DNA of 27,302 bases. Source: a virus. The stretch lies in the IMG/VR virus record IMGVR_UViG_3300025880_000079, positions 1 through 27,302 of that record, one strand, 5' to 3'. Position 1 is the stretch's first letter; every line of letters begins with the position of its first letter. Below the pieces are notes generated by a model. That model worked only from the letters and a program-made list of their open reading frames with translations. It was not told the origin of the DNA and searched no databases. Of the stretch, positions 8,698 through 27,302 are shown one piece after another. A program made the position numbers and the translations under genes.

Positions 8698-8961
8698 ATG
8701 AAAATGTTGGGAAACAATGTACTGGTAGCAGAGGTACAGAAAGAAGCAACCACAGCAGGTGGTATTATATTAACAGAATCAATCGATAAAGGCAGTAAAC
8801 CAGGGCTAGTTTTAGCGGTAGGTGGTGGTGCACTCGGTACAGTTATGTCAGGAAATAAAGTATTTCTTGATTGGAGTAAATCATTACCCGTAAATGTAGA
8901 AGGTAAAGCAGCAGTTATTGTTGATGTAGAACACATTAAAGCAGTAATAAGTGAAGGGTAG
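8698..8961 (+). CDS. GroES-like co-chaperonin (T4 gp31 role)
   Basis: This 87-residue protein is a GroES-type cap for the host GroEL. Visible features are the N-terminal strand MLGNNVLVAEVQ, the mobile loop ending in the hydrophobic GGIIL tripeptide (about residues 21-26) that contacts GroEL, and the barrel strands GLVLAVGGG, GNKVFLDW and AAVIVDVEHIKAVI. It is slightly shorter than bacterial GroES (about 95) and much shorter than T4 gp31 (111), so it resembles GroES more than gp31. In T4-like phages this protein replaces GroES to fold the major capsid protein. No separate groEL is present in the window. Confidence 0.88.
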   Translation: MKMLGNNVLVAEVQKEATTAGGIILTESIDKGSKPGLVLAVGGGALGTVMSGNKVFLDWSKSLPVNVEGKAAVIVDVEHIKAVISEG

Positions 8962-14878: not shown

Positions 14879-15265
14879 ATGGCATACTCCGCTAAAGTTT
14901 TAGATCATTATGAAAATCCACGCAATGTTGGTACTATGGATGAGACTGATCATAATGTTGGAACAGGTATGGTTGGTGCACCCGCTTGTGGTGATGTAAT
15001 GAGATTGCAGATAAGGGTAGACGATGCAGGTATTATACGGGACGCAAAATTTAAAACTTACGGTTGCGGCAGCGCTATTGCTTCCAGTTCTTTACTTACT
15101 GAGTGGGTCAAAGGTAGAACCCTCGATGAAGCCTATACTATACGGAACACAGAGATTGCCGAAGAACTGGCACTACCCCCTGTTAAAATACACTGTTCTG
15201 TATTGGCCGAAGATGCAATTAAATCCGCGGTGGATTCACTAATAAAAAAAGGATGGTATGATTAA
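14879..15265 (+). CDS. iscU: IscU-type Fe-S cluster scaffold
   Basis: This 128-residue scaffold assembles iron-sulfur clusters. All three ligand cysteines are present: Cys37 (GAPACGD, with the key Asp39), Cys63 (YGCGSA) and Cys106 (IHCSV). The HscA chaperone recognition motif LPPVK is intact at 99-103, so it is an IscU rather than a SufU or NifU fragment, and it can probably hand clusters to the host HscA/HscB system. Length equals that of bacterial IscU. It overlaps the following A-type carrier gene by 8 bases. The cysteine desulfurase (IscS) must come from the host. Confidence 0.96.
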   Translation: MAYSAKVLDHYENPRNVGTMDETDHNVGTGMVGAPACGDVMRLQIRVDDAGIIRDAKFKTYGCGSAIASSSLLTEWVKGRTLDEAYTIRNTEIAEELALPPVKIHCSVLAEDAIKSAVDSLIKKGWYD

Positions 15266-15578
15266 ACTAACAGATTCAGCAATACACCAAGTTGCAAAAC
15301 ATATATCAAAGAGAAGTGGCACTTTGGGTGTGCGATTAGGGGTGAAGAATTCCGGTTGTAGTGGTTTCTCTTATGTATTGGAATTTGTTGACAAGCCAAC
15401 AGCAGATGATACTATAGTCCAAGCAGGTGATGTAACCATAGTACTAGATTCTAAGAGTGCTATAGTATTAGACGGCACAGAGCTAGACTATACCCGACAA
15501 GGGTTGAATGAGGGGTTTGAGTTTAAGAACCCCAACGTCAAAGCAGAATGTGGTTGTGGAGAGAGTTTCACAGTATAA
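15258..15578 (+). CDS. iscA: A-type Fe-S carrier protein (IscA/ErpA/SufA family)
   Basis: This 106-residue HesB-type protein has the conserved cysteines Cys34 (NSGCSGF), Cys98 and Cys100 (AECGCGES), which carry a cluster from the scaffold to target enzymes. The fold hallmark VRLGVKNSGCSGFSY and the C-terminal CGCGESF match the family. The start lies in the end of iscU, a coupled pair. Subfamily (IscA, ErpA or SufA) is not settled by sequence alone. Possible targets include host or phage Fe-S enzymes such as ribonucleotide reductase activators; none is visible in this window. Confidence 0.94.
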   Translation: MIKLTDSAIHQVAKHISKRSGTLGVRLGVKNSGCSGFSYVLEFVDKPTADDTIVQAGDVTIVLDSKSAIVLDGTELDYTRQGLNEGFEFKNPNVKAECGCGESFTV

Positions 15579-17029: not shown

Positions 17030-17037
17030 TATAAATA
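17030..17037 (+). promoter_or_regulatory. T4-type late promoter for the capsid-region genes
   Basis: An exact TATAAATA in a 55-base gap between genes, with the start near 17043 and a GGGGA ribosome-binding site at 17059-17063 before the ATG at 17068. It is the best placed late promoter in the window and would open the block of late genes to 26669. Confidence 0.75.
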
Positions 17038-17067: not shown

Positions 17068-18531
17068 ATGAAAAGGTTTAGTCAACACTACAGACAAGAA
17101 ATTCGCGAAGATTTACAAAATCTAAATTTTTCTGGTAATGAAAAGAAATTTGCACTAGAACTTCTTTCAGATATCGACGACCAAATTGGTTCTATAGATT
17201 CTACTATAGAATATGATACCCGACCTAAGAAACAAACTGGCAAAAGACTTGCCATCTCCCAACTTATTGATGATAAAGACAGAGAGAAATTTACTGCTCT
17301 TGCTAATAAAATCATTGATGACCATCCTGAATTAAATAGAGGCGCTGTACCTGGTTCTCGTAAAGAGAAGGACTATGCAATTGTATTTAACGATTTAGAT
17401 AAAACAATCTATGTTAATGTAAGACCAACAGGTAAAAGAAGTTCTGCAGGTGATGATCCGAATGAACTTATGACTGCAGCTTTGTGTCTTAAATCCAAAA
17501 TTGATATACCTACTAATTCAGATGAACTAGATGCATTGATTGAAGATGTAAAGAATAGCCTTGGTGGTGTAAAAGGATATAAAAAAGGCCAAGTTGATGC
17601 ACTAACTGGTGATTATCCAAATATGGCCCAAGCAGTATCTGCTGCTGTAACAATTCACGAGGCTGGATATGGTAATGCAGATAAAGTATACCTCACCGGC
17701 CAAGCATGGGATGATGATGTAAAACAATTCCAAAGAACTAAGTATGGTATGGCAGACTTTAATTCTTCTGACTTTATTATAAAGAAGGGTAAGAAGTACT
17801 TAGGTGTTTCACTAAAGAAAAAGCCATTACCAACTACTGGTGATCCAACTCTAATCAACAAAGCATTCGCTAGTCTTTTATCTGGTTCTCCAGAACTTAA
17901 AAAGGTGAGAGAAGGAATTGAAAAAGATGCTGGAGAATTCTATGTTCATGTAATCAAACTTGCGGCACGATTGAAAAAGTTATCACCAGATATGATGGCG
18001 GATTTAAAGAAAGATAAACCTACAAGCACAAACTGGAAACAATATATTCAAAGAATACCCAACGACTTAATTAATACTATGTTAAAGAGAAAGAGAACTC
18101 TCTTTGCGGTCATGGGTGATACTATTCTTAAAAACGCCGATCTCATTGCTAATCAATTAATACAATTAATATTTAAGGCTGATCTCAAAGAGTTACAGAA
18201 AGTTGACTTTGATTTTACGTTGGTTACAGGTATTGGTGATTATGGTCCTAAGAAAGGTGTAGTTGTTTCTAAAGGAGAATATAAAGACATTAATACTGTA
18301 ACATCTCAATTAGATGATTTGTTTTCTAAGGGGAAACCTAAAATAATATTTACACCAGGCGTAAAACAGGCCTTTGAAGTCGGCGCAACTGCAGCTAACC
18401 TTAAATTTGATTTAATGATTGGTAAAGTAACAGTGTGTAATATTATACTTAGATATAAAGGCGACTTTAGAAGTGCTCCTAATTTTAATGCTGTCATGAC
18501 ACAAGAATTTAAAAACTTATATAAAGGGTAA
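17068..18531 (+). CDS. conserved phage protein with possible PD-(D/E)XK nuclease motif
   Basis: This 487-residue protein of the late block begins MKRFSQHYRQEIREDL. Around residues 230-255 it has GMADFNSSDFIIKKGKKYLGVSLKKKP. The order, Asp, then a strand with S-x-K instead of the usual E-x-K, fits a PD-(D/E)XK-type nuclease core loosely. The rest contains helical and strand-rich parts (SQLDDLFSKGKPKIIF, then a C-terminal domain from about 430). Related proteins occur in marine T4-like phages. Its first residues resemble the M-K-x-F motif of the later genes but lack a clear (L/I)xE|(A/G) site. It is the first gene after the late promoter. Structural or nuclease role is open. Confidence 0.72.
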   Translation: MKRFSQHYRQEIREDLQNLNFSGNEKKFALELLSDIDDQIGSIDSTIEYDTRPKKQTGKRLAISQLIDDKDREKFTALANKIIDDHPELNRGAVPGSRKEKDYAIVFNDLDKTIYVNVRPTGKRSSAGDDPNELMTAALCLKSKIDIPTNSDELDALIEDVKNSLGGVKGYKKGQVDALTGDYPNMAQAVSAAVTIHEAGYGNADKVYLTGQAWDDDVKQFQRTKYGMADFNSSDFIIKKGKKYLGVSLKKKPLPTTGDPTLINKAFASLLSGSPELKKVREGIEKDAGEFYVHVIKLAARLKKLSPDMMADLKKDKPTSTNWKQYIQRIPNDLINTMLKRKRTLFAVMGDTILKNADLIANQLIQLIFKADLKELQKVDFDFTLVTGIGDYGPKKGVVVSKGEYKDINTVTSQLDDLFSKGKPKIIFTPGVKQAFEVGATAANLKFDLMIGKVTVCNIILRYKGDFRSAPNFNAVMTQEFKNLYKG

Positions 18532-18534
18532 TAC

Positions 18535-19776
18535 ATGAAAAGTTTAACCGGATATCTATCTGAGGCAGCAGGCAAAAACACACACATGACACACATTGAA
18601 GATTTGATTCTTGATGGTGGTGTCAAGGGTGCACGTCAAGCTATCAACGCCTTAAGAAGTTTAAGGGATATGTTAAGTGGTAACTCTAAGAAATCAGTTG
18701 ATATAACCGTTAAGTGGGACGGCGCTCCTGCAGTATTTGCTGGTGAAGACCCAAGAGATGGTTCATTCTTTGTTGCTAAGAAAGGTATCTTTAATGCCAA
18801 CCCAAAGATTTATAAGTCACATGAAGATATTAAAGCAGATACTTCTGGTGACCTTACTAAGAAATTAATACTAGCATTTGATGAACTACAAAAGTTAGGT
18901 ATCAAAGGAGTCATTCAAGGTGACTTCATGTTCGACCAATCCGACTTAAAGAAGGAAACAATTGATGGAGTATCTTATACTGTTTTTCATCCTAATACCA
19001 TTGCTTATGCTGTCCCTACTAACTCTGATATTGCTAAAGAAATTAGATCGGCTAAAATAGGAATAGTATGGCACACAATTTATAGTGGAGCCACATTTGA
19101 AACTATGCAAGCTGAGTTCGGTAGAGAGATAGTACCCAAGTTAAGAAAGTCCAAGAGTGTTTGGATGGTAGACGCAACAATGCCTGACCTATCAGGTACT
19201 GCAACTCTTACTGCAAAAGAAACTGCCGCAGTAACAAAGAATTTATCTGAAGCAGGTAAACTGTTTAAACAAATCGCTTCATCTACCCTTAAAGAAATAG
19301 AACAGAATAAAGAATTAAATACGGTTATTAATGTATATAATAATAGGAAAGTAAGAAACCAAGAAAGAATTACAGATACCAAGAAACATGCGACTGGTTT
19401 GGTTATGTTTGTTAACGATCGATATGCTAAAGAAATAGATAAAAGGTCTACTGATAAAGGTAAACAAGGTCAAATTTCTAAAAGAGACGAGTTATTAAAG
19501 TTTTTTAGTAAAGGTAACATTAAAAATCTACAAAAAATCTTCGAAATGCAGAATTTTGTAGTGGATAGTAAATTAATTATTATAAATAAACTAAACAAAC
19601 TTTCTAATATTGGGACGTTTGTTAAAACTAAATCCGGATTTAAGGTAACCAACCCAGAAGGTTTTGTTGCAATAGATCGCATGGAAGGTGGCGCTGTTAA
19701 ATTAGTTGATAGAATGGAATTTTCTGCCAATAATTTTAGCAAAGATATTATAAAAGGTTGGGATAACCCCAACTAA
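18535..19776 (+). CDS. DUF6267-like late protein with KxDG nucleotidyltransferase-like motif
   Basis: This 413-residue protein belongs to a family conserved in marine T4-like phages (I associate it with DUF6267, from memory). It starts MKSLTGYLSEAAGKN, a capsid-targeting-like peptide with LSE|A. DITVKWDGAPAVFAG (residues 57-70) has K-W-D-G, the lysine-centred motif I of ATP-dependent ligases and RNA capping enzymes. PEGFVAIDRMEGGAVKLVDR near the end resembles motifs IV and V (EGhV and KhK), so a covalent nucleotidyltransferase fold is plausible. An intermediate stretch IKGVIQGDFMFD could be motif III. The function has not been established that I know of. It could be a ligase delivered in the virion. 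Strongly supported as a gene, tentatively as a ligase. Confidence 0.75.
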   Translation: MKSLTGYLSEAAGKNTHMTHIEDLILDGGVKGARQAINALRSLRDMLSGNSKKSVDITVKWDGAPAVFAGEDPRDGSFFVAKKGIFNANPKIYKSHEDIKADTSGDLTKKLILAFDELQKLGIKGVIQGDFMFDQSDLKKETIDGVSYTVFHPNTIAYAVPTNSDIAKEIRSAKIGIVWHTIYSGATFETMQAEFGREIVPKLRKSKSVWMVDATMPDLSGTATLTAKETAAVTKNLSEAGKLFKQIASSTLKEIEQNKELNTVINVYNNRKVRNQERITDTKKHATGLVMFVNDRYAKEIDKRSTDKGKQGQISKRDELLKFFSKGNIKNLQKIFEMQNFVVDSKLIIINKLNKLSNIGTFVKTKSGFKVTNPEGFVAIDRMEGGAVKLVDRMEFSANNFSKDIIKGWDNPN

Positions 19777-19793
19777 ATGGGAACCGAGGATAT

Positions 19794-20159
19794 ATGAAAT
19801 CGTTCAAAGAGTACACAGATGCCCAAGAAGCATTAACTTTACAGCAAAGGCAGAAAAGAAAAGCTTCTTTTAGAAAAAATAAAGCAAAGATTATGATTGC
19901 CCGTAAAAAAGCGGCCAAGAAACTTGCTTCTCCAGAACAATTAAAGTCACGCGCGACTCTTGCAGCACGTAACTTAATCATCAAAAAAATACTAAAGAAT
20001 AAATCTAAAGCAGACTTATCATTTGCTGCACGTACTGAATTAGAAAAGAAAGTAAAGAAGAAGTCCGCTGCTATTAAGAAGATCGCTAAGAAGTTACTAC
20101 CACAAGTAAAGAAAGCTGACAAGGCCAAATTGAAAAAGACAAAAACACCTGGACAATAA
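19794..20159 (+). CDS. lysine-rich late protein, probable internal head protein
   Basis: This 121-residue very basic protein starts MKSFKEYTDAQEALTLQQ (AQE|A) and continues with lysine- and arginine-rich helices (QRQKRKASFRKNKAK, KKVKKKSAAIKKIAKKLLP). Very similar proteins recur in T4-like cyanophages and other marine myoviruses. High basicity and a targeting-like N-terminus fit a DNA-binding protein packed in the head, comparable in general terms to the T4 internal proteins. No enzyme motif is visible. Gap of 17 bases after the KxDG gene. Confidence 0.75.
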   Translation: MKSFKEYTDAQEALTLQQRQKRKASFRKNKAKIMIARKKAAKKLASPEQLKSRATLAARNLIIKKILKNKSKADLSFAARTELEKKVKKKSAAIKKIAKKLLPQVKKADKAKLKKTKTPGQ

Positions 20160-20163
20160 TATT

Positions 20164-21513
20164 ATGGAATTTAAAAGCTTTAGTTCATACTTAAAAGAAG
20201 AAAAAGGAGAGGTCACATTTACTTTTGGTAGATTTAATCCACCTACTGTTGGGCATGAGAAACTGTTTGATAAGGTAAAAGATGTATCAAACGGGGTATA
20301 TAGAATATACGGTTCTAAATCACAAGACCCTAAGAAAAATCCATTATCATTTAAACAGAAAGTTAAATTCCTGCGTAAGATGTTTCCTAAACATGCTCGT
20401 AGTGTTATGGCTGATAGTGATGTAAGACACGTTATGGATATTGCTGTTAAGTTATATGACCAAGGTTTTACTGCGGTAAATATGGTAGCAGGTTCAGATA
20501 GAGTAAAAGAATTTAATGTATTATTAAATAAATATAATGGTGTTAAAGCAAGACACGGGTTTTACGAATTTAAAGATGGTGTGAAAATTATATCCGCCGG
20601 AGAAAGAGATCCAGACGCAGAGGGAGTGACAGGGATGTCCGCTTCTAAAATGAGAGCAGCTGCAGAGGACGGAGATGCAGTATCCTTTTCAAAAGGTGTT
20701 CCACGTGGTTATGATTCTAAGGATTTATTTAATACTGTTAGAAAAGAAATGGGTATCAAAGAAAGTCTTAATTTAAGAAAGCACGTAGAACTACCTAAAG
20801 TGTCCAAGACTAGAGAGCAATATGTAGAGGGTAGTTTATTCTCTGAAGGCGATACAGTTGCATTAAAAGAAACTAATGATGTGGGTACTATTATAGTATG
20901 TGGTACTAATTATCTAGTAGTAGAATTCGGACAATGGAAGAAAAGAGTCTGGCTGGATCAAGTTGATTTAGTAGAGAAGTGTGGCGCTGGTGAAGAAGGA
21001 ACTGACGAGTTAGTAAATACATATAAGAAAGGTGTACCCGGCCAAACAGAAGAAAAAGAAAAGAAGAAAAGAACTAAAGCATATCATACCGGATTAAAGA
21101 AATCCACATCAGATAAAAGACAAACACATTTTAATAAAGGCGCAAAAATGGATGATGATAATCCAGCTGCGTATAAACCTGCCCCCGGCGATGCTACTGC
21201 CAAAACTAAACCATCTAAACATACTAAGAAATATAACAAAATGTTTGGTGAATCTTTATTGACATTTGAAGATTTTGCTATAGATGAAGGTTCTGCAGAT
21301 GCTGGTCTAAAGAAGAAAGCAGATAAGTCAGGTATGCCTTTAGGTATTCTAAAACAAGTTTATAAAAGAGGTGTAGCCGCATGGCGTACCGGCCATAGAC
21401 CTGGTACTACTCCACAACAATGGGGATTTGCAAGAGTTAATTCTTTTGTAACTAAATCATCAGGAACATGGGATAAGGCAGATAAAGACCTTGCTGCTAA
21501 GGTTAGAGGTTAA
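20164..21513 (+). CDS. nucleotidyltransferase fused to C-terminal DUF5872-like domain
   Basis: This 449-residue protein has a targeting-like start (MEFKSFSSYLKEEKG), then a nucleotidyltransferase domain: TFTFGRFNPPTVGHEKLF with TVGH at 28-31, and TGMSASKMRAAAEDGD, the conserved S-x-S-x-x-R end motif. It resembles NMN or nicotinate nucleotide adenylyltransferases and related phage enzymes. A small beta segment follows (GDTVALKETNDVGTIIV). The last 75 residues (ADAGLKKKADKSGMPLG, then AAWRTGHRPGTTPQQWGFA) match the DUF5872 pattern I recall from phages. A second targeting-like peptide, LLTFEDFAIDEGS, precedes that domain, so cleavage could release it. The substrate is uncertain. Confidence 0.8.
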   Translation: MEFKSFSSYLKEEKGEVTFTFGRFNPPTVGHEKLFDKVKDVSNGVYRIYGSKSQDPKKNPLSFKQKVKFLRKMFPKHARSVMADSDVRHVMDIAVKLYDQGFTAVNMVAGSDRVKEFNVLLNKYNGVKARHGFYEFKDGVKIISAGERDPDAEGVTGMSASKMRAAAEDGDAVSFSKGVPRGYDSKDLFNTVRKEMGIKESLNLRKHVELPKVSKTREQYVEGSLFSEGDTVALKETNDVGTIIVCGTNYLVVEFGQWKKRVWLDQVDLVEKCGAGEEGTDELVNTYKKGVPGQTEEKEKKKRTKAYHTGLKKSTSDKRQTHFNKGAKMDDDNPAAYKPAPGDATAKTKPSKHTKKYNKMFGESLLTFEDFAIDEGSADAGLKKKADKSGMPLGILKQVYKRGVAAWRTGHRPGTTPQQWGFARVNSFVTKSSGTWDKADKDLAAKVRG

Positions 21514-21514
21514 T

Positions 21515-21751
21515 ATGAAGACATTTAAAGAACAACAAGAGATTGATGAAGCACCATTGGTGATGAATGATATGGATATGGCAAATGCTCTTTTTACAAA
21601 GATTAAAGATGATATGCTTAAAGCTAAAAGAAGTAAAAAGGATGAGAAAAACTGGCCCATTCTGCAAACTCTTGCCAAAATAGCAGGATATGGGATTAGT
21701 AAGAAAGGACAGGCCAAAAATAAGTCTTATAAGTACGACCTTAAGAAATGA
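21515..21751 (+). CDS. small late protein with capsid-targeting-like start
   Basis: This 78-residue protein begins MKTFKEQQEIDEAPLV, one of the clearest targeting-like starts, with IDE|A. The remainder is charged and helical (MDMANALFTKIKDDMLKAKRSKKDE), ending in a basic stretch KKGQAKNKSYKYDLKK. It lies one base after the nucleotidyltransferase stop, and its stop overlaps the next gene (ATGA). Function unknown. If cleaved after Glu12 it would leave a mature protein of about 66 residues. Confidence 0.78.
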   Translation: MKTFKEQQEIDEAPLVMNDMDMANALFTKIKDDMLKAKRSKKDEKNWPILQTLAKIAGYGISKKGQAKNKSYKYDLKK

Positions 21752-22422
21752 ATACTTTTAAAGAACATTTTGATATAATGGAAGGTGTTAATGACCCTTC
21801 TATATTTAAAGCAGTATTTCTTGCTGGTGGCCCAGGTTCTGGTAAGTCATTTATAGTTGGAAAGACTGCTCTAAAGGCATTAGGGTTTAGGTTAATTAAC
21901 TCCGATGATGCTTTTGAAAACGGATTAAAGAAAGCTGGTCTTACTACTGATCCTGCTGATATTGCATCGGCCCAAGGTCAAGCAGTAAGAGCAAAAGCCA
22001 AAGCTCTTACGGGTAGAATGATGACTAGGGCTTTACAAGGTAGGCTTGGTATTGTTATTGATGGTACAGGTAAAGACTATACTAAAATTAAAAGCCAAGT
22101 TGATATCTTAAGAGAACTTGGGTATGCAGTACATATGATTTTTGTTAACACAGATTTAGAAACAGCTATGAGTAGAAATAATAACCGGCCACGTTCTTTA
22201 CCAGACGATATGGTATCAAAAATGTGGAAAGATGTTCAGAAGAATATTGGTAAATTTCAAGGCTTGTTTAGAAATAGAATGATTGTTTTGGATAATTCAG
22301 AAGGGTCTGATATAGAAACATCAACTCTAGAAGCATATAAAGATATTAAAAGATGGGCCGCTAAGGCCCCAGAAAACTCCATTGCAGTTAAATGGATAAA
22401 GGGACAGAAAAATGGAAAATAA
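21748..22422 (+). CDS. P-loop kinase, zeta-toxin-like, with capsid-targeting-like start
   Basis: This 224-residue protein starts MNTFKEHFDIMEGVND (IME|G), then a kinase domain: AVFLAGGPGSGKSFIV with Walker A at 27-34, INSDDAFE, IVIDGTGKDYTKIK with Asp-Gly-Thr-Gly, MIFVNTDLETAMSRNNNRPRSLPDDMV with arginines typical of the lid. The layout resembles zeta-toxin and polynucleotide-kinase-like P-loop enzymes. In zeta toxins the substrate is UDP-GlcNAc; the substrate here is unknown. The combination of a kinase domain and a head-targeting peptide suggests that it is packaged and delivered into the cell, which is inference. It overlaps both neighbours. Confidence 0.82.
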   Translation: MNTFKEHFDIMEGVNDPSIFKAVFLAGGPGSGKSFIVGKTALKALGFRLINSDDAFENGLKKAGLTTDPADIASAQGQAVRAKAKALTGRMMTRALQGRLGIVIDGTGKDYTKIKSQVDILRELGYAVHMIFVNTDLETAMSRNNNRPRSLPDDMVSKMWKDVQKNIGKFQGLFRNRMIVLDNSEGSDIETSTLEAYKDIKRWAAKAPENSIAVKWIKGQKNGK

Positions 22423-22855
22423 AGAACGAGATAAGATAGTAAAATCGTTTAATGCTAAATGGAAATACAGAAAAGATAAAGAGCAATACGGCATGGCTGA
22501 TGCTTGGAAGATAATCTATTCTGAAAATGCGGAAGGTAAACTAGTAGGTGATTGTGAAGACTACGCGCTATCTATTCTTTGGAGACTTTCTGGAGAAAGT
22601 CATTTAAAAATGTGGTGGTTACTACTCACCCATCAAGCAGGTATCTGTTGTGTTGGGCCAAGTAAGTGGAAGATGTCACATGCAGTATTAAGATATAAAG
22701 GTGAATGGGTAGATAACTGGACTAAGAAGTTCGGCCCTAAATCTGCTATAGAAAAGAATCATACTTTCCATATCTTTTACGGATATGGTTGGGCATATTT
22801 TACTGCTCTTAAAATGGTAATGAGTAAGGTAGTAAGAACTATAAAGGGATTGTAG
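22412..22855 (+). CDS. transglutaminase-like cysteine protease (BTLCP type)
   Basis: This 147-residue protein shows the bacterial transglutaminase-like cysteine proteinase layout. Cys48 is in VGDCEDYALSILWRL, His90 in MSHAVLRYKGEWVDNW and Asp101 two residues after the strand, giving a Cys-His-Asp triad. Family members include LapG-type periplasmic proteases that cut surface adhesins. Here there is no signal peptide, so it would act in the cytoplasm or in the virion. Unlike its neighbours it lacks the MK-x-F-K-E start. Its start overlaps the kinase gene and its stop overlaps the next start. Substrate is unknown. Confidence 0.83.
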   Translation: MENKERDKIVKSFNAKWKYRKDKEQYGMADAWKIIYSENAEGKLVGDCEDYALSILWRLSGESHLKMWWLLLTHQAGICCVGPSKWKMSHAVLRYKGEWVDNWTKKFGPKSAIEKNHTFHIFYGYGWAYFTALKMVMSKVVRTIKGL

Positions 22856-23223
22856 TGCACAGTTTTTTAGAACATATAGAAGAACGATTTGGATTATATG
22901 AAGGACAGCATGTACCTTTAGAACAACCAATGATTGAAGCTACTAAAGACAAAGATGTTGAATTAAACTCTCCTAAGAGAGGCGGTAAAGCTAAGTACTA
23001 TGTATATGTAAAGAATGATAAAGGTAATGTAATAAAAATTCAATTTGGTGATACTACTGGGTTGAGTGCTAAAATTAACGATAGAGATGCTGCAAGGAAC
23101 TTTGCTGCAAGACATCAGTGTGATACTAAGAACGATAAGACAAAGGCAGGTTATTGGGCATGTCGTCTTCCTAAGTACGCAAAACAACTAGGATTAAAAG
23201 GTGGTGGATCTTACTTTTGGTAA
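22855..23223 (+). CDS. late protein with targeting-like start, small conserved domain
   Basis: This 122-residue protein uses a GTG start that overlaps the previous stop (TAGTG). It begins MHSFLEHIEERFGLYEGQHV, with LYE|G. The C-terminal domain, KAKYYVYVKNDKGNVIKIQFGD followed by RNFAARHQCDTKNDKTKAGYWACRLPKYAKQLGL, is a conserved module in marine T4-like phages with two cysteines that could bind a metal. I do not know its function. The extent and context fit a head-internal or injected protein. Confidence 0.75.
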   Translation: MHSFLEHIEERFGLYEGQHVPLEQPMIEATKDKDVELNSPKRGGKAKYYVYVKNDKGNVIKIQFGDTTGLSAKINDRDAARNFAARHQCDTKNDKTKAGYWACRLPKYAKQLGLKGGGSYFW

Positions 23224-23494
23224 ACCGTATTGGGAAGATGCTGATATAAGGCATTTTGACCCAAGTACAGAAGACGCGGAGTTCGTATGGCACCGTGATA
23301 TGGAAGATCGGGAGATAGAAATACTAGCAGGTGAAGGATGGCAATTTCAATTAGAGAATTGTCTCCCATGGTTGTTAAAAAAAGGTATGGTATTCGACAT
23401 TAAGAAAGAGGAATTCCATAGATTAATAAAGGGGGTAACCCCATTAAAATGCAGGGTTTATAAACATGGTAACAGCGCAAGAACAGAGGGCTGA
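23201..23494 (+). CDS. conserved hypothetical protein, cupin-like pattern
   Basis: This 97-residue protein probably starts at GTG 23201 or 23204, overlapping the previous gene by about 20 bases. It contains FVWHRDMEDREIEILAGEGWQFQ, LPWLLKKGMVFDIKKEEFHRLIKG, a pattern of a small beta-barrel (cupin-like) with a W-H-R-D and H-R-L-I-K-G pair. I recall similar short proteins in T4-like phages, function unknown. It carries no targeting-like start, so it may not be packaged. The end overlaps the next gene by 29 bases. Start position is uncertain. Confidence 0.65.
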   Translation: MVDLTFGKPYWEDADIRHFDPSTEDAEFVWHRDMEDREIEILAGEGWQFQLENCLPWLLKKGMVFDIKKEEFHRLIKGVTPLKCRVYKHGNSARTEG

Positions 23495-23765
23495 TCAATC
23501 AGCGCGCCTGGATAGAATTGAACAGAAAATTGATCAAATGTCTGAAGCAATTATTGCCTTGGCTCGAGCCGAAGAAAAGATAATTACCTTAACAGAATTT
23601 GGTAAACAACAGGGTGCACAGATATTAACCCTTATAAATAGAGTAGATAGGTTAGAAGATACTGTACGTGCTAATGGTGCAACAGTGTCAATTATTAACA
23701 AATTGTTCTGGATAGTCATTGCGGCCGCCGCCACAGCTATTACAGGAATGCTTTTCATACAATAG
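23466..23765 (+). CDS. coiled-coil protein with C-terminal membrane anchor (XhlA-like)
   Basis: This 99-residue protein has a long amphipathic coiled coil (RADQSARLDRIEQKIDQMSEA and TLINRVDRLEDTV) and a C-terminal hydrophobic segment, LFWIVIAAAATAITGMLF (80-97). The layout resembles XhlA-type haemolysin or holin-accessory proteins and is common in phages. It could aid lysis, but no adjacent holin or lysin is seen. An exact TATAAATA at 23633-23640 lies inside it. The AGAGG at 23485 is part of its coding sequence. Function tentative. Confidence 0.72.
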   Translation: MVTAQEQRADQSARLDRIEQKIDQMSEAIIALARAEEKIITLTEFGKQQGAQILTLINRVDRLEDTVRANGATVSIINKLFWIVIAAAATAITGMLFIQ

Positions 23766-23775
23766 GAGAATCAAA

Positions 23776-24669
23776 ATGAAAATCAATGATAAAGAAACTC
23801 TAAGCATTGCTGCAGCAGTCAGTGATGTACTAGAAGGAAAAACAAGAAAGGAAGAAGCTAAATATCCACATGATATGTTTCATCCAGAAACTGGAGAGAA
23901 GGAAGTAGCTAAAGACGAGTCAGAGCACAAAGCATTGGCTAAGAAAGGTTATACCCACGAAAAACCAGAAGTTGATGAGGTTGCAGAACCTGTCGCTGGT
24001 AAAGAAAAAGAATTTAAGGCCAAACATAAGATTAAGAAGTCTGGCGAAAACGAAGATGGTACTGTAGTTAAAGAAAAGAAAGTTGACGAAGTACTTGGTT
24101 TCGATAAAGATAATCCCAACAAGTCTGACGACAAAGAAGACGAGAAGGATATCAAGAAAGAGGGTAACAAGTTTACCATGGCTTTGAATGCAGCTCGTAA
24201 GAACGGCGATGATGAATTTGTTGTAGCAGGTAAGAAGTATAAAGTTGAAGACTATGATGAAGATGAAGACGACAAGGAAGAAGTTGAAGAAAGGTCAATG
24301 ACTCCGATGAAAGATAAGTTCGGCGCCGATAAAAACCTTGTTAAGAAAGCCGTTGCTCTTGCTCTTAAAATGGGTGGTAATATGACTGGTGCTACTAAGA
24401 AAATTGAAAAGATGAAGAAAGGTCTTTCAAATGATCCTGAAGTAAAAGCGGCATTACAACTTGCCAATGAAGAGGTAAGTGAAGAAGTGGTTGAAGAAGC
24501 TATTAAAATGAATGAAGCAGAAGATAAGAAAGCTAAATATAAAGCATTCTTTGATAAGGCTCTTAAAAAGTTCGGAGTTGATTCACCTGCAGAATTAAAG
24601 GGTGATAAGAAGAAAGAATTTTTTGATTACGTAGATGCAAACTACGAAGCGGAGAACGAGTCAGACTAA
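23776..24669 (+). CDS. highly charged late protein, probable head-core or scaffold-like
   Basis: This 297-residue protein begins MKINDKETLSIAAAVSDVLEG, with VLE|G near residue 20, and is very rich in Lys, Glu and Asp (KEKKVDEVLGFDKDNPNKSDD, EDYDEDEDDKEEVEER). It ends FFDKALKKFGVDSPAEL then KKKEFFDYVDANY, a C-terminal pattern that recurs in T4-like marine phage proteins. Low complexity and charge fit a prohead core (scaffold) or head-internal protein. The start at 23776 has AGGAG at 23764-23768 and is preferred over the ATG at 23719. Function inferred. Confidence 0.75.
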   Translation: MKINDKETLSIAAAVSDVLEGKTRKEEAKYPHDMFHPETGEKEVAKDESEHKALAKKGYTHEKPEVDEVAEPVAGKEKEFKAKHKIKKSGENEDGTVVKEKKVDEVLGFDKDNPNKSDDKEDEKDIKKEGNKFTMALNAARKNGDDEFVVAGKKYKVEDYDEDEDDKEEVEERSMTPMKDKFGADKNLVKKAVALALKMGGNMTGATKKIEKMKKGLSNDPEVKAALQLANEEVSEEVVEEAIKMNEAEDKKAKYKAFFDKALKKFGVDSPAELKGDKKKEFFDYVDANYEAENESD

Positions 24670-25034
24670 TGAAAAATTTTAAACAAATTAGAAAAGAAAT
24701 AGCTGAAGGTGTAAAAGACCTTAAGAACTATAAAGACCGAGACCGTAAAGGGCATGAAGCATATATGAATATTCATGTAGTCAAAGGTAATTCATCTAAT
24801 AAATTCAATGATGACTTTGGATTTAACCAAAAAGAAATGGATATGATGGATAAACTTATAAGTAAAATCAAAAATATGCATGTAGCAAGTTTTGATGGTG
24901 GTGATTCTGCTCCTGCATCCTTAGAGTTTTATGGTGACGTTGCATCTTTAAATAAATTCTTAAAAGATGGAAAAGTACAAAGTATAGTTAAGAAGTATAA
25001 AGCTAAAGTTAATGGTCCTACTAAACTAAAATAG
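24669..25034 (+). CDS. small late protein with capsid-targeting-like start
   Basis: This 121-residue protein begins MKNFKQIRKEIAEGVKDL, with IAE|G, close to the T4 targeting consensus. The rest has a conserved-looking folded part (KEMDMMDKLISKIKNMHV, ASLEFYGDVASLNKFL) and a basic end. I do not recognise the domain. The ATG shares its A with the previous stop. A late promoter starts five bases after its stop. Confidence 0.76.
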   Translation: MKNFKQIRKEIAEGVKDLKNYKDRDRKGHEAYMNIHVVKGNSSNKFNDDFGFNQKEMDMMDKLISKIKNMHVASFDGGDSAPASLEFYGDVASLNKFLKDGKVQSIVKKYKAKVNGPTKLK

Positions 25035-25038
25035 CGAT

Positions 25039-25046
25039 TATAAATA
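25039..25046 (+). promoter_or_regulatory. T4-type late promoter, nearly leaderless
   Basis: An exact TATAAATA in the 17-base gap between genes. The expected start point, about 6 bases downstream, coincides with the ATG at 25052 (a second ATG lies at 25055), so the transcript would have no ribosome-binding site. Confidence 0.62.
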
Positions 25047-25051
25047 ACTAT

Positions 25052-25423
25052 ATGATGAAAATATTTGATACCTTAAATAGGAAGAATTTTGAGCTATATG
25101 CGGCACAAAATTATAACAACCCTGAGTGCATAGACATAGAAGAATTTAAGGAGGACTTGGCTAGATTTAAGTATCTTAAAAGACTCCTTAGACGCTATGA
25201 AGTAAATGATGAGTTACAAGAGAGGCTCATTCTAAACCATTTAATAGTATTATATAATGTGTTTGGTATCGAAGCGGCTAATAAAATGATCTGGTATAAA
25301 ATAGAACCAGAACATTGGACATATATTAAACCATTTCTGGTATTTTTAAATTATCTACCAGAAGATGAACAAATAGGGGTTCCACTAGATCCATATATAG
25401 TGGAAGTATTAAGGAAAATTTAA
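25052..25423 (+). CDS. conserved phage protein
   Basis: This 123-residue helical protein begins MMKIFDTLNRKNFELYAAQN and contains RFKYLKRLLRRYEVNDELQERLILNHLIVLYNVFG. It ends VPLDPYIVEVLRKI. Closely similar proteins are found in marine T4-like phages, next to a gene like the one at 25423. The function is unknown to me. The start may be 25052 or 25055 (MMK or MK). It carries no targeting-like cleavage site and overlaps the next gene by one base. Likely a late, possibly structural, protein because of the promoter just upstream. Confidence 0.78.
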   Translation: MMKIFDTLNRKNFELYAAQNYNNPECIDIEEFKEDLARFKYLKRLLRRYEVNDELQERLILNHLIVLYNVFGIEAANKMIWYKIEPEHWTYIKPFLVFLNYLPEDEQIGVPLDPYIVEVLRKI

Positions 25424-26007
25424 TGGGTGTAGTATCACGTACAGCAGATTTATTTTACGCCTTTAGGTTTCTAAAGCTATTGGTGACGCCATGGAACAAA
25501 ATGGGCGCATTTGAACAAGGTATTATTGATGAGAATGGTAATAATTTAAAGAAGGCCAGAGAGTTAACCACCTCACAAGAGAAAGAAGTTTATACAGTAT
25601 TTCATAGATTGGTATTTAATCTAAAAAGAATTTTACAGAAAATACCATTTGGTAAAACAAAGTTAGCATCATATGCTGCAGCTTTGTTCTTAATTAAAGA
25701 AAATACGGATCTAACAGAAGAAGAAATTAGAAAGGTATTAGAAGAAGTTTTAGATGACTTGGACGAATCACTTAATGAGAGTGTGTTCTTTATTAAAGAT
25801 AATGTGATTAATCCAGGTAGATATAAATTAACTACTGAAATGGCTAGTAATAAAACTGGAGAGATTATTGCTTTCCCTGGCCAAGAAGTGGTTGTAAATT
25901 TACATAGCGAACCTGTTGATTATATATTTAATACAGGTATCTATGAAGTAACTCATACACTGACTAAACAGAAGTTATACATAAGTAGTGGAGATATAAA
26001 AAAATGA
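25423..26007 (+). CDS. conserved phage protein
   Basis: This 194-residue protein has an N-terminal helical part with YAFRFLKLLVTPWNKMGAF and VFHRLVFNLKRILQKIPFGKTKLASYAAALFLIKE, then an acidic helix (EEEIRKVLEEVLDDLDESL) and a C-terminal beta-rich domain (PGRYKLTTEM, VVVNLHSEPVDYIFNTGIYEV). It is conserved beside the 25052 gene in marine T4-like phages. The family function is unknown to me; a structural role is possible. It starts at the last base of the previous stop and overlaps the next start (ATGA). Confidence 0.78.
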   Translation: MGVVSRTADLFYAFRFLKLLVTPWNKMGAFEQGIIDENGNNLKKARELTTSQEKEVYTVFHRLVFNLKRILQKIPFGKTKLASYAAALFLIKENTDLTEEEIRKVLEEVLDDLDESLNESVFFIKDNVINPGRYKLTTEMASNKTGEIIAFPGQEVVVNLHSEPVDYIFNTGIYEVTHTLTKQKLYISSGDIKK

Positions 26008-26669
26008 AAAAATTTAAAGACATGTGGGAAGATGCAGCTGCTAATTCAGTAAGTGCTGATGGTGTAGATATGCCGGCTGATGTCCAACATGATAAGAAGA
26101 AGAAAAAGAAAGCAGCAGTCTATGACGGACGTACTAAAGAAGGTAAGAAGTTTGTCGAAAAGATGCTAGCTAGAAGAAAGGCTAAAGAAATTAATGCCTC
26201 TAAGCAGAATGCGGCTTCAGTCTCTATGAAAGAAGAAACCATTGAAGAAGGCTATGCTGCTGATAAAGAAAAGAAGCAGAAAGCAACCTTGGCCAAGCAT
26301 GATAAACGAATGATTAAAGTTGCAAGAGATTCTATTAAGAAATATCAGGACAAGAAAGATACTAAGGAAGCTAAGAAACCCGTATCTAAGATGACTCCTG
26401 CTGAGAAAGCTGCCGATGCTAAAAGACGAAAAGAGTATAACGCATATCAGAAGTCTAAGCGCAATGAAACTGTTGAAGAAGCTAAAGCACCAAAAATTAA
26501 AGGGCTTTCTTTATACGGATCTGAGGTTGCAGGTTTAAGAGCTAAAGATGGTAAGCTGTATAGTGCAAAACCAGTGGTTATGGGTGGTAAGTTGGCCTAT
26601 AGAGTAACTGATGAGTTCGGCTCATTTGAAACTCTTCCATTGAAGAAATTTGCGGCTAAGTTTGGTTAG
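26004..26669 (+). CDS. lysine-rich late protein with targeting-like start
   Basis: This 221-residue protein begins MKKFKDMWEDAAANS and is very basic in its middle (DKKKKKKAAVYDGRTKEGKK, KKYQDKKDTKEAKKPVSKM). Two further gp21-like sites are seen inside, TIEEGYAAD and TVEEAKAP, so it may be cut into peptides like T4 internal or core proteins. The C-terminal 55 residues (KIKGLSLYGSEVAGLRAKD onwards) look like a small folded domain of beta strands. Function unknown; a head-internal protein is the best guess. Confidence 0.74.
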   Translation: MKKFKDMWEDAAANSVSADGVDMPADVQHDKKKKKKAAVYDGRTKEGKKFVEKMLARRKAKEINASKQNAASVSMKEETIEEGYAADKEKKQKATLAKHDKRMIKVARDSIKKYQDKKDTKEAKKPVSKMTPAEKAADAKRRKEYNAYQKSKRNETVEEAKAPKIKGLSLYGSEVAGLRAKDGKLYSAKPVVMGGKLAYRVTDEFGSFETLPLKKFAAKFG

Positions 26670-26685
26670 TCATATAGGGTAAATT

Positions 26686-27078
26686 ATGTCAAAAATGTTG
26701 ATTGGAATTATTGTTGCTATGGGTTTATCATGTATGTTATACTATCAATTCTCTGTTGTCCCTATGCAGGTTAAACTAGAAGAACAGACCAAAGTTATTC
26801 TAGCACAAGACCTCAGGGACCAAGAACAAAAGGCCGCAATCGAGGCCATTCAAAATAACCTAACTCAAACTACTCAAGCCTTGAGTGGTTTACAAGTTAA
26901 AAACCAACAGTACGAATCAGAAATGGCAGAATATTTAGATATATTCAGACGCCATAATCTTGCTAAGTTAGCATCTGCCAAACCAGGTATGATACAAATT
27001 AGATCCAATAATAAAACTAAGGAGGTCTTTGATGCGATTGAAGCAGATAGTCAGCGTATTAGCTCTCTTAACGATTAG
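26686..27078 (+). CDS. inner-membrane spanin-like protein (Rz type)
   Basis: This 130-residue protein has an N-terminal signal-anchor (MLIGIIVAMGLSCMLYYQF, residues 4-22) followed by a periplasmic coiled coil (VKLEEQTKVILAQDLRDQEQK, and LQVKNQQYESEMAEYLDIFRR). This is the layout of the inner spanin, which with the outer lipoprotein fuses inner and outer membranes at lysis in Gram-negative hosts. Its last 47 bases overlap the start of the outer-spanin-like gene at 27032, as in Rz/Rz1 pairs. Assignment rests on layout and gene overlap rather than sequence similarity. Confidence 0.75.
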   Translation: MSKMLIGIIVAMGLSCMLYYQFSVVPMQVKLEEQTKVILAQDLRDQEQKAAIEAIQNNLTQTTQALSGLQVKNQQYESEMAEYLDIFRRHNLAKLASAKPGMIQIRSNNKTKEVFDAIEADSQRISSLND

Positions 27079-27302
27079 TGGTTGTAGTCTGTTACAGCAG
27101 GCGCCAAGAGAAGTTGAGATTATAACAAAACCAATTAAAATAGATATTGTTCAACCGGTATTACCAAGAGCAATTCATTTAAAAGAACCTAAGTGGTATG
27201 TAGTATCTGATGCTAAGATAATTGAGAATTGTCTTAAAAACCCAGAGACTAAAAAGCCTGATTGTAAATTAGGCAGAGAAGATTTATATCCAGAAGGTCA
27301 TA
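27032..27302 (+). CDS. outer-membrane spanin-like lipoprotein (Rz1 type), 5' part
   Basis: The gene runs past the window end. It begins MRLKQIVSVLALLTISGCSL with a lipoprotein signal and lipobox (ISGC, lipidated Cys18). A GGAGG site at 27021-27025 sits at suitable distance inside the preceding gene. The mature part continues as EVEIITKPIKIDIVQPVLPRA then HLKEPKWYVVSD, with a few prolines but fewer than classical Rz1. Embedding in a different frame of the preceding gene supports a spanin pair. At least 90 residues are seen. The length past the edge is unknown. Confidence 0.8.
   Translation, partial: MRLKQIVSVLALLTISGCSLLQQAPREVEIITKPIKIDIVQPVLPRAIHLKEPKWYVVSDAKIIENCLKNPETKKPDCKLGREDLYPEGH

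Follow-up and report, generated by a model that had tools for sequence, protein, structure and literature searches.

Why should proteins with unrelated bodies begin with variants of one short peptide? The question is raised by a block of genes in the IMG/VR virus record IMGVR_UViG_3300025880_000079, which we analysed as a whole (27,302 bases, probably a fragment of a genome; hereafter the window). To judge from its sequence, the source phage is a T4-like myovirus near the marine Kyanoviridae; among named phages, those closest to it by their block proteins are Phage C48C1, the Methylophilales phage Melnitz and Pelagibacter phage HTVC008M. An earlier note on this DNA had compared the starts of nine block proteins with the capsid-targeting sequence (CTS), the peptide that packages the internal proteins (IPs) of T4 and is removed by the prohead protease gp21. 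All nine quoted starts and sites are present in the sequence, and T4 IPII and IPIII do start MKTYQEFIAEA, as had been said. We consider it quite likely that the block is a T4-type internal-protein locus, in which the CTS/gp21 system would load the head with enzymes, as a modular set of changing make-up.

A leader shared within one block

Genes are named below by their first position in the window, and the block genes described lie on its plus strand. We built a leader profile of eight columns (residues 2-9) from 18 N-termini of other phages, none of them from the window: T4 IPI-IPIII, five S-CREM2 proteins detected by mass spectrometry (MS), and ten late-block starts of C48C1 and HTVC008M. The seven best of the 47 window genes were, in order, 19794, 20164, 21515, 24669, 18535, 26004 and 21748 (12.8 to 7.5 bits), all of them in the block; below these came 17068 (eighth, 3.7 bits), 22855 (tenth, 3.1 bits) and 23776 (thirteenth, -0.5 bits). 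Seven of 14 block genes against none of 33 others gives p = 5.5e-5 in Fisher's test, with a cut that was set after the scores were seen, and a cut-free Mann-Whitney comparison of the block with the remaining window genes gives p = 7e-5. Among the 222 Melnitz genes, those for the nucleotidyltransferase, DUF6267, the basic protein and a displaced kinase are in the top ten; four of the ten, the displaced kinase among them, lie outside the block, and block and rest differ at p = 8e-4. Eight of the top nine among 143 genes called in the close relative G003 fall within one 10.5-kb stretch (52.9-63.3 kb); in G001, with 168 genes, five of the top six fall within 52.8-62.0 kb and the remaining one lies at 75.7 kb. 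The concern that the peptide might be equally common elsewhere was not borne out by the remaining genes in the window or in Melnitz, G001 and G003.

The relation to T4 is seen from the other side as well. A reverse profile made only from window starts placed T4 IPI first of the 134 genes called in T4 40-130 kb (13.2, the next gene 7.6); IPIII and IPII shared ranks 7-8. The IPI start, MKTFKEFTSTTTPVSTITEA, is still nearer to the window leaders than that of IPII and IPIII. A strict regular expression with T4 spacing was rejected as a general detector; it found none of the 143 genes in G003, against eight block genes found by the profile.

The first gene of the block, 17068 (17068-18531), encodes a 487-aa protein of phrog_3060 with no assigned function and a predicted propeptide MKRFSQHYRQEIRE|D (17068-17109); its relatives begin MLGFKQFIPED or MIRFKNSFMTEE. 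The DUF6267 protein (18535-19776) has the predicted propeptide MKSLTGYLSE|A (18535-18564), with exact T4 spacing. It is followed by a small, very basic protein (19794-20159; mature net charge +33; propeptide MKSFKEYTDAQE|A, 19794-19829) and by a nucleotidyltransferase (CTP_transf_like) fused to DUF5824 (20164-21513), whose propeptide MEFKSFSSYLKE|E (20164-20199) has the T4 spacing shifted by two. Between its two domains the fusion holds an internal CTS-like peptide and site, LLTFEDFAIDE|G (residues 365-375, 21256-21288). Further predicted propeptides stand on a 78-aa protein (21515-21751; MKTFKEQQEIDE|A, 21515-21550), a P-loop kinase (AAA_33/zeta-toxin-like, 21748-22422; MNTFKEHFDIME|G, 21748-21783), a 122-aa protein of phrog_7595 with a GTG start (22855-23223; MHSFLEHIEERFGLYE|G, 22855-22902) and a 121-aa protein (24669-25034; MKNFKQIRKEIAE|G, 24669-24707), and a basic 221-aa protein (26004-26669) has the probable propeptide MKKFKDMWE|D (26004-26030).

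The original list of members needs revision in both directions. A shared CTS-like leader stands for the seven top-ranking genes and for 22855, which scores low by itself but whose relatives carry MKSFKTFKESFGIYEG or MKTFTEYNQSFGLYEG; the site of 26004 is atypical, and both 17068 and the internal copy at 21256-21288 had been overlooked and are to be added. The acidic 297-aa protein 23776 (23776-24669; start MKINDKETLSIAAAVSDVLE|G) was rejected as a CTS protein: with its profile score of -0.5 it has no targeting part or CTS start and keeps the conserved VLE|G cleavage site alone. It may be a core- or scaffold-like protein.

Conserved sites, variable leaders and fusions

We searched IMG/VR for relatives of the block. 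At least 596 kinase relatives were found, of which the best 80 loci were used, together with 30 loci for the nucleotidyltransferase; a protein was called tagged at 5 bits or more in the leader profile, and family figures come from part of the 44 larger clusters. Six families (nucleotidyltransferase, kinase, basic protein, 21515, DUF6267 and 26004) are tagged in 55-89% of their members. The tag is less frequent in a 455-aa family (16%) and in the families of 22855 (15%) and 17068 (8%), and it occurs in 0% of the families of 22412, 23201, 23466, 23776, 25052, 25423 and 26686, several of which are interleaved with the tagged ones in the operon.

For each family we also counted, over distinct sequences including the window's own, F, L or Y at residue 4 and the presence of a site between residues 6 and 30, with the stretch 31-55 as control for the site. 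These three fractions were 0.87, 0.98 and 0.00 for the kinases (n = 60), 0.96, 0.89 and 0.02 for DUF6267 (n = 47), 0.95, 0.68 and 0.00 for the basic protein (n = 44), 0.98, 1.00 and 0.00 for 22855 (n = 46), 0.94, 0.81 and 0.00 for 26004 (n = 31), 0.63, 0.92 and 0.00 for 21515 (n = 38), 0.71, 0.86 and 0.00 for 24669 (n = 7), and 1.00, 1.00 and 0.00 for 17068 (all nine sequences). The residue-4 feature of a T4-type CTS is thereby found in 63-98% of the sequences in the DUF6267, basic-protein, 21515, kinase, 22855, 24669 and 26004 families, the gp21-type site being weaker in 26004 and part of the 24669 family. The nucleotidyltransferases, with their motif shifted by two, gave 0.07, 0.86 and 0.05 (n = 44), and the 23776 family 0.11, 1.00 and 0.04 (n = 28). 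Among control families the values were 0.03, 0.00 and 0.60 for 22412, 0.19, 0.03 and 0.78 for 25052, and 0.14, 0.00 and 0.00 for 25423; 23201 (0.45, 0.77 and 0.64) and 23466 (0.00, 0.50 and 0.09) show that the site by itself is not diagnostic.

Anchoring the search on the conserved body alone, and not on the leader, gave a sharper picture of the site. In 65 of 65 kinase relatives a hydrophobic-x-E|G stands immediately ahead of the body, while the leader is mostly 12 residues long and ranges from 10 to 25, with one site at 160 inside a longer protein; certain kinases have exact T4 spacing (MKSFKTFIAEG). The 21515 type has hydrophobic-x-E|A/S/G immediately ahead of its body, PL(V/I)M, in 35 of 35 relatives. 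For the basic protein, where only E|A was tested, the body anchor matches 33 relatives, with leaders of 9-27 aa, and in all of these E precedes the body A; divergent members fail the anchor and so stand outside the 33. This constancy of the site at the start of the body while the leader varies supports the comparison with the T4 CTS.

The site is also kept where cargo domains are joined. At the nucleotidyltransferase-DUF5824 junction a CTS-like peptide with hydrophobic-x-E is present in 27 of 27 distinct fusions (e.g. GEMKSFKQSIEE|ADAK), and L067 (PF19141) and C48C1 (by alignment) encode DUF5824 in a tagged gene of its own. Seventeen of the 35 21515-type domains are the C-terminal parts of fusions, with the site at 17 of 17 junctions, and tag-like modules of various types stand at the start of the 16 fused copies listed. 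A 680-aa fusion of nucleotidyltransferase, RimK and protease (L121:5995-8034) starts MSKSVRDFLNED. Such fusions might be packaged through the first tag and then cut in the head as polyproteins. We extend this tentatively to a modular locus for effector delivery in marine T4-like phages, which are widespread: one targeting peptide would carry the polyprotein into the head, the prohead protease would cut internal CTS-derived sites to give separate effectors, and the cargo would be a pre-made kit for nucleic-acid or nucleotide repair and host modification, at work ahead of any phage gene expression. The kit, as tentative as the rest of this proposal, would comprise the ligase-like DUF6267, the P-loop kinase and the NMNAT-like enzyme, joined in relatives by RimK-type ATP-grasp enzymes. 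A RimK-type ATP-grasp protein with the tag MINFNGYITEE was seen outside the block at L139:15690-17111 (G001 75690-77111), and Melnitz gene 140382 (MTQKFSQFITEE) comes after a gene annotated RimK-like.

A cleavage mechanism of this kind calls for gp21 and for a matching site in the capsid protein gp23. The earlier proposal to find gp21 and derive its consensus from head proteins could be followed in relatives and not in the window, where a gp21 (PF03420) search gave no match, an uninformative absence since the window is a 27-kb fragment. Among seven contigs of close relatives that were searched, four have gp21 and five have gp23. Placed by analogy with T4 gp23, the propeptide ends would be ISE|V and INE|T in close relatives, so that I-x-E is the likely form there, and LTE|A or LSE|A in S-SZBM1, S-CREM2 and Melnitz.

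In T4 IPIII, targeting depends on residues 4 and 7 and processing on residues 8 and 10, and propeptides are 10-19 residues long (PMC9026906). Our computations show the leader and its site, the contrast between families within one operon, conservation at the protein level, and the protease and capsid protein in relatives; late expression, targeting, cleavage, injection and the roles of the cargo we infer. Tagged proteins would be synthesised with an N-terminal propeptide, removable and some 9-20 residues long, that begins M-K/N-x-F/L/Y and ends in hydrophobic-x-E. As with T4 IPI-IPIII, binding of the propeptide to the scaffold core would bring the protein into the prohead, and gp21 would cut after the E beside A, G or S. 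The cargo, freed in this way inside the head, would be packaged alongside the DNA and most likely leave the head together with it. The predicted cargo comprises the ligase-like DUF6267, the very basic protein, the nucleotidyltransferase joined to DUF5824 by a second CTS-like site, the P-loop kinase and several small basic proteins. Packaging of the block proteins into the head appears well supported and likely; their injection into the host is, by analogy, probable.

Virion proteomes and competing explanations

The note had called for virion proteomics, and we turned to the published virion proteins of three cyanophages. The MS lists were Table 3 of PMC10665884 for S-CREM2 and Table 1 of PMC9146016 for S-SZBM1; S-SCSM1 virion proteins were taken from record labels (48 counted, the published figure being 45). 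In residues 2-30 we searched for the T4-residue motif [FYL]..[FY][LIMFV].E, which was derived from mutational data in PMC9026906 and fixed when the S-CREM2 N-termini were already known. It matches 10 of 217 S-CREM2 proteins, of which seven were detected by MS (p = 0.0021); a baseplate protein among them probably matches by chance. With 26 named structural and lysis proteins set aside, six of nine motif matches and 20 of 182 others were detected (p = 2.3e-4). All four S-CREM2 virion enzymes outside these classes (SAM hydrolase, 'Cas9', kinase and cytidylyltransferase) carry the motif, which turns up in about 0.5% of internal 29-residue windows. When the three proteomes are pooled, nine of 17 motif matches are virion proteins, against 121 of 696 others (p = 0.0011). 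The leader profile, trained free of S-CREM2 peptides, gave p = 0.0045 for S-CREM2, with p = 0.30 for S-SZBM1 and p = 0.50 for S-SCSM1; an earlier, looser regular expression had given Fisher p values of 0.06 for S-CREM2 and 0.65 for S-SZBM1.

Nucleotidyltransferase homologues of 20164 are reported from the purified virions of S-CREM2 (33% identical), S-SZBM1 (36%) and S-SCSM1 (42% over 285 residues; start MKSFLQFLKEA, annotated NMNAT), and each starts with the T4 core motif, a further point in favour of the CTS reading. S-CRM01 has MISFDQFLSEK at the start of its homologous kinase and MKLFNQFFKEA at that of its nucleotidyltransferase; the kinase is stated to be a virion protein in PMC10665884, which cites another paper. 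The untagged DUF6267 homologues S-CREM2 gp87 and S-SZBM1 141 are absent from the MS lists. Of the 17 genes that make up the syntenic block of S-SCSM1, lying between gp41 and the primase, seven are labelled as coding for virion proteins, compared with 41 of the 265 other genes (p = 0.014). A narrower block of genes 89-97 (7/9 virion proteins, p = 8e-5) was dropped; its boundary had been drawn after the labels were seen.

Two side observations concern tags in these phages. In S-CREM2 ORF12, a virion protein annotated Cas9-like, and in similar starts from S-CRM01, S-N03 and S-H34 (L143:4702-5253, L144:3743-4971, L145:3716-4944), the tag lies about 20 residues in, after a common SRWSxW...G-like leader. 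S-SCSM1 gene 30 and S-SZBM1 gene 191 encode similar small proteins (MKTFKQFMSESVNISGDFNGNLY and MKSFKSFLSESVNISGDFNGNLY, respectively) with near-perfect T4 tags and are in neither virion proteome.

Several results weigh against the interpretation of the block as an internal-protein locus. The training peptides and cut-offs were picked by eye, those of S-CREM2 after its MS list was known, and the virion data come from cyanophages, none of which is the source phage. The support from S-CREM2 was not repeated in the other two: one of four motif matches was detected in S-SZBM1 (p = 0.45) and one of three in S-SCSM1 (p = 0.43), both genome-wide. The S-SZBM1 cytidylyltransferase (MRFRQFIIEA) was detected while 191 and 192, which have stronger tags, were not, and S-SCSM1 gene 30 was likewise undetected. 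The S-SCSM1 block test weakens when the boundary ignores the labels, enrichment of the syntenic block is not significant in S-SZBM1 (3/11, p = 0.18) or S-CREM2 (4/8, p = 0.09), and the S-SCSM1 block virion proteins 90, 92 and 93 have no CTS. A profile of window starts misses the tagged S-CREM2 enzymes (two of its top eight are MS-positive, neither an enzyme), and by the strict T4-residue motif only 18535 and 20164 have exact T4 spacing in the window. Leaderless homologues exist as well, namely nucleotidyltransferases beginning MKKVVFTFGR and the DUF6267 proteins of S-SZBM1, S-CRM01 and S-CREM2, and part of the 24669 relatives begin MKSFKQIREDIFKLKNF, with no clear E|G site.

The tags could be handles of the assembly core only, borne by scaffold or core proteins that aid head building and are degraded or expelled before DNA entry, with no delivery to the host. 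T4 gp22 and gp67 are indeed cut up in the head, IPIII has a role in head assembly (PMC9026906), and 23776, acidic and with a site but no CTS, resembles a core protein. We nevertheless regard this explanation as unlikely, given that the bodies match enzyme families (kinase, nucleotidyltransferase, and a ligase-like one), that almost no further sites occur in residues 31-55, and that homologous nucleotidyltransferases remain in CsCl-purified virions. The MS support would be void if the cyanophage virion enzymes were co-purifying contaminants, a possibility stated in PMC10665884 and one that fits the listing of a translational repressor among the S-SCSM1 virion proteins. We think this improbable in view of the tag on all four S-CREM2 enzymes, set against its low rate in internal windows, and of the recurrence of the nucleotidyltransferase in three virions.

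Two further explanations would remove the function from the peptide. Similar starts in adjacent genes of one operon might be functionless leftovers of a common ancestral start region, spread by duplications; the bodies, however, match different families, the leaders of close homologues differ in length and sequence while position 4 and the site persist, and S-CREM2, S-CRM01 and T4 have the pattern on other proteins, all of which makes such an origin very improbable. The 5' codons might alternatively act as a translation-initiation or regulatory element of late genes, and codon 2 is AAA in 51 of 54 starts of the type MK(T/S)F. But Ser-3 is encoded by both TCN and AGT, so that selection appears to act on the peptide, at the protein level; the neighbouring 22412, 23201, 23466, 25052 and 25423 families have no leader, and the conserved E lies at a varying distance from the start. 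We find an effect at the nucleotide level hardly credible.

Cargo, setting and known systems

For an internal-protein locus the nature of the cargo is the next question. The presence of a kinase and a nucleotidyltransferase among otherwise unrelated bodies, foreseen in the earlier note, agrees with the family matches: 21748 scores 48.6 bits against AAA_33 (gathering threshold 27) and 44.4 against Zeta_toxin (22.3), and 20164 has a borderline 21.2 bits against CTP_transf_like (gathering 21) and matches phrog_3041, cytidyltransferase, at E 1.5e-101. In DUF6267, K60-W-D-G63, E375-G376 and K389 are invariant in 32 of 32 aligned sequences; we take KxDG, EG and the lysine to be motifs I, IV and V of the covalent nucleotidyltransferase (DNA/RNA ligase) superfamily. 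Its structure model has pLDDT 84 and pTM 0.80, with residues 1-17 below pLDDT 50, and RNA ligases top the fold comparison (Z 7.6, rmsd 3.8, 182 aligned), under the level counted as clear. Foldseek gave no match for this model at E<=0.001, and the sequence gave three weak matches to solved structures, none of them ligases. A ligase-type nucleotidyltransferase is nonetheless the probable identity of 18535.

Neither the kinase nor the 17068 sequence matched a solved structure, and tblastn found no match for the basic protein in named phages. The 17068 model is poor (pLDDT 63); a GVSLKK stretch seems by eye to be common to 17068 and S-SCSM1 virion protein 90, but the profile comparison gave a probability of 1.9%, so homology is not claimed. 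Tagged proteins with alanine/lysine/glycine-rich repeats (AAKGAKAGAKAAIKKGK), histone-like by eye, were noticed at L098:7678-8796, L097:2205-2618 and L112:5146-5487. Together, DUF6267, the P-loop kinase and the NMNAT-like enzyme suggest that at entry the cargo may repair nucleic-acid ends or serve nucleotide metabolism.

Upstream of the block are uvsX and a gp41-type helicase (window gene names were assigned by eye), an arrangement shared by HTVC008M and S-CRM01. In the gap ahead of 17068, at 17030-17037 on the plus strand, is TATAAATA, presumably a T4-type late-promoter box. The window holds six copies against a mean of 5.2 expected, which is not above chance, and we rejected such counts as support for late expression. 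Directly 3' of the block, a small membrane protein gene (26686-27078) and an overlapping lipoprotein-like start (27029-27301; ...LTISGCSLLQ) resemble by eye an inner/outer spanin pair. Elsewhere in the window, also by eye, are adjacent small genes for IscU-like and IscA-like Fe-S cluster assembly proteins (14879-15265 and 15258-15578), here in a phage, and a small GroES-like protein (8698-8961).

The results suggest that a marine relative of T4 may carry ready-made enzymes into the cell along with its DNA, and a readable address tag predicts which of many uncharacterised proteins travel in the head. We scanned 118 IMG/VR loci and contig pieces; their proteins form 405 clusters, of which 46 have at least one member with tag and site, part of the 46 being single open reading frames that may be spurious; in single genomes the counts are two of 218 genes (S-SZBM1) and six of 222 (Melnitz). 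The list of candidate injected proteins is therefore long and variable, as might be expected of anti-defence cargo. The tag also makes testable the position of cyanomyoviruses, from which alt, modA and modB are absent (PMC2984593, 2010) and whose virion enzymes were left as possibly co-purified (PMC10665884).

In the literature searched, judged by titles, we found no CTS in marine-phage or cyanophage papers; the proteome papers on Syn9, S-PM2, S-CRM01, S-TIM5 and S-CBWM1 lay outside that search. The mechanism is T4's; of the cargo, its number and turnover, and of the internal sites, we met no description there. New are the ligase-like motifs predicted in DUF6267 (18535) and the cargo fusions that keep a cleavage site at every junction, suggesting packaged polyproteins.

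The ejection proteins of SPN3US, phiKZ and P1, likened here by description only, are also packaged in the head, processed by a prohead protease and ejected. The cyanophage virion enzymes (kinases, NMNAT/cytidylyltransferase, SAM hydrolase) include a homologous nucleotidyltransferase with the same T4 core motif at its start, but in the published excerpts they are presented as virion-carried or possibly co-purified, with no link to a CTS. T4 Alt, an ADP-ribosyltransferase that starts MELITELFDE, is likewise a head-carried enzyme cut by gp21 near its start; in its place the block would have a kinase, a ligase-like protein and a nucleotidyltransferase. With T4 IPI, IPII and IPIII the block shares the short propeptide with an aromatic residue 4 and a hydrophobic-x-E|A end, small basic cargo, non-homologous bodies and, as proposed, gp21. 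Unlike the T4 proteins, it brings together about ten tagged genes, among them enzymes and two-domain fusions with an internal site, and its spacing is mostly of the longer type, as in IPI.

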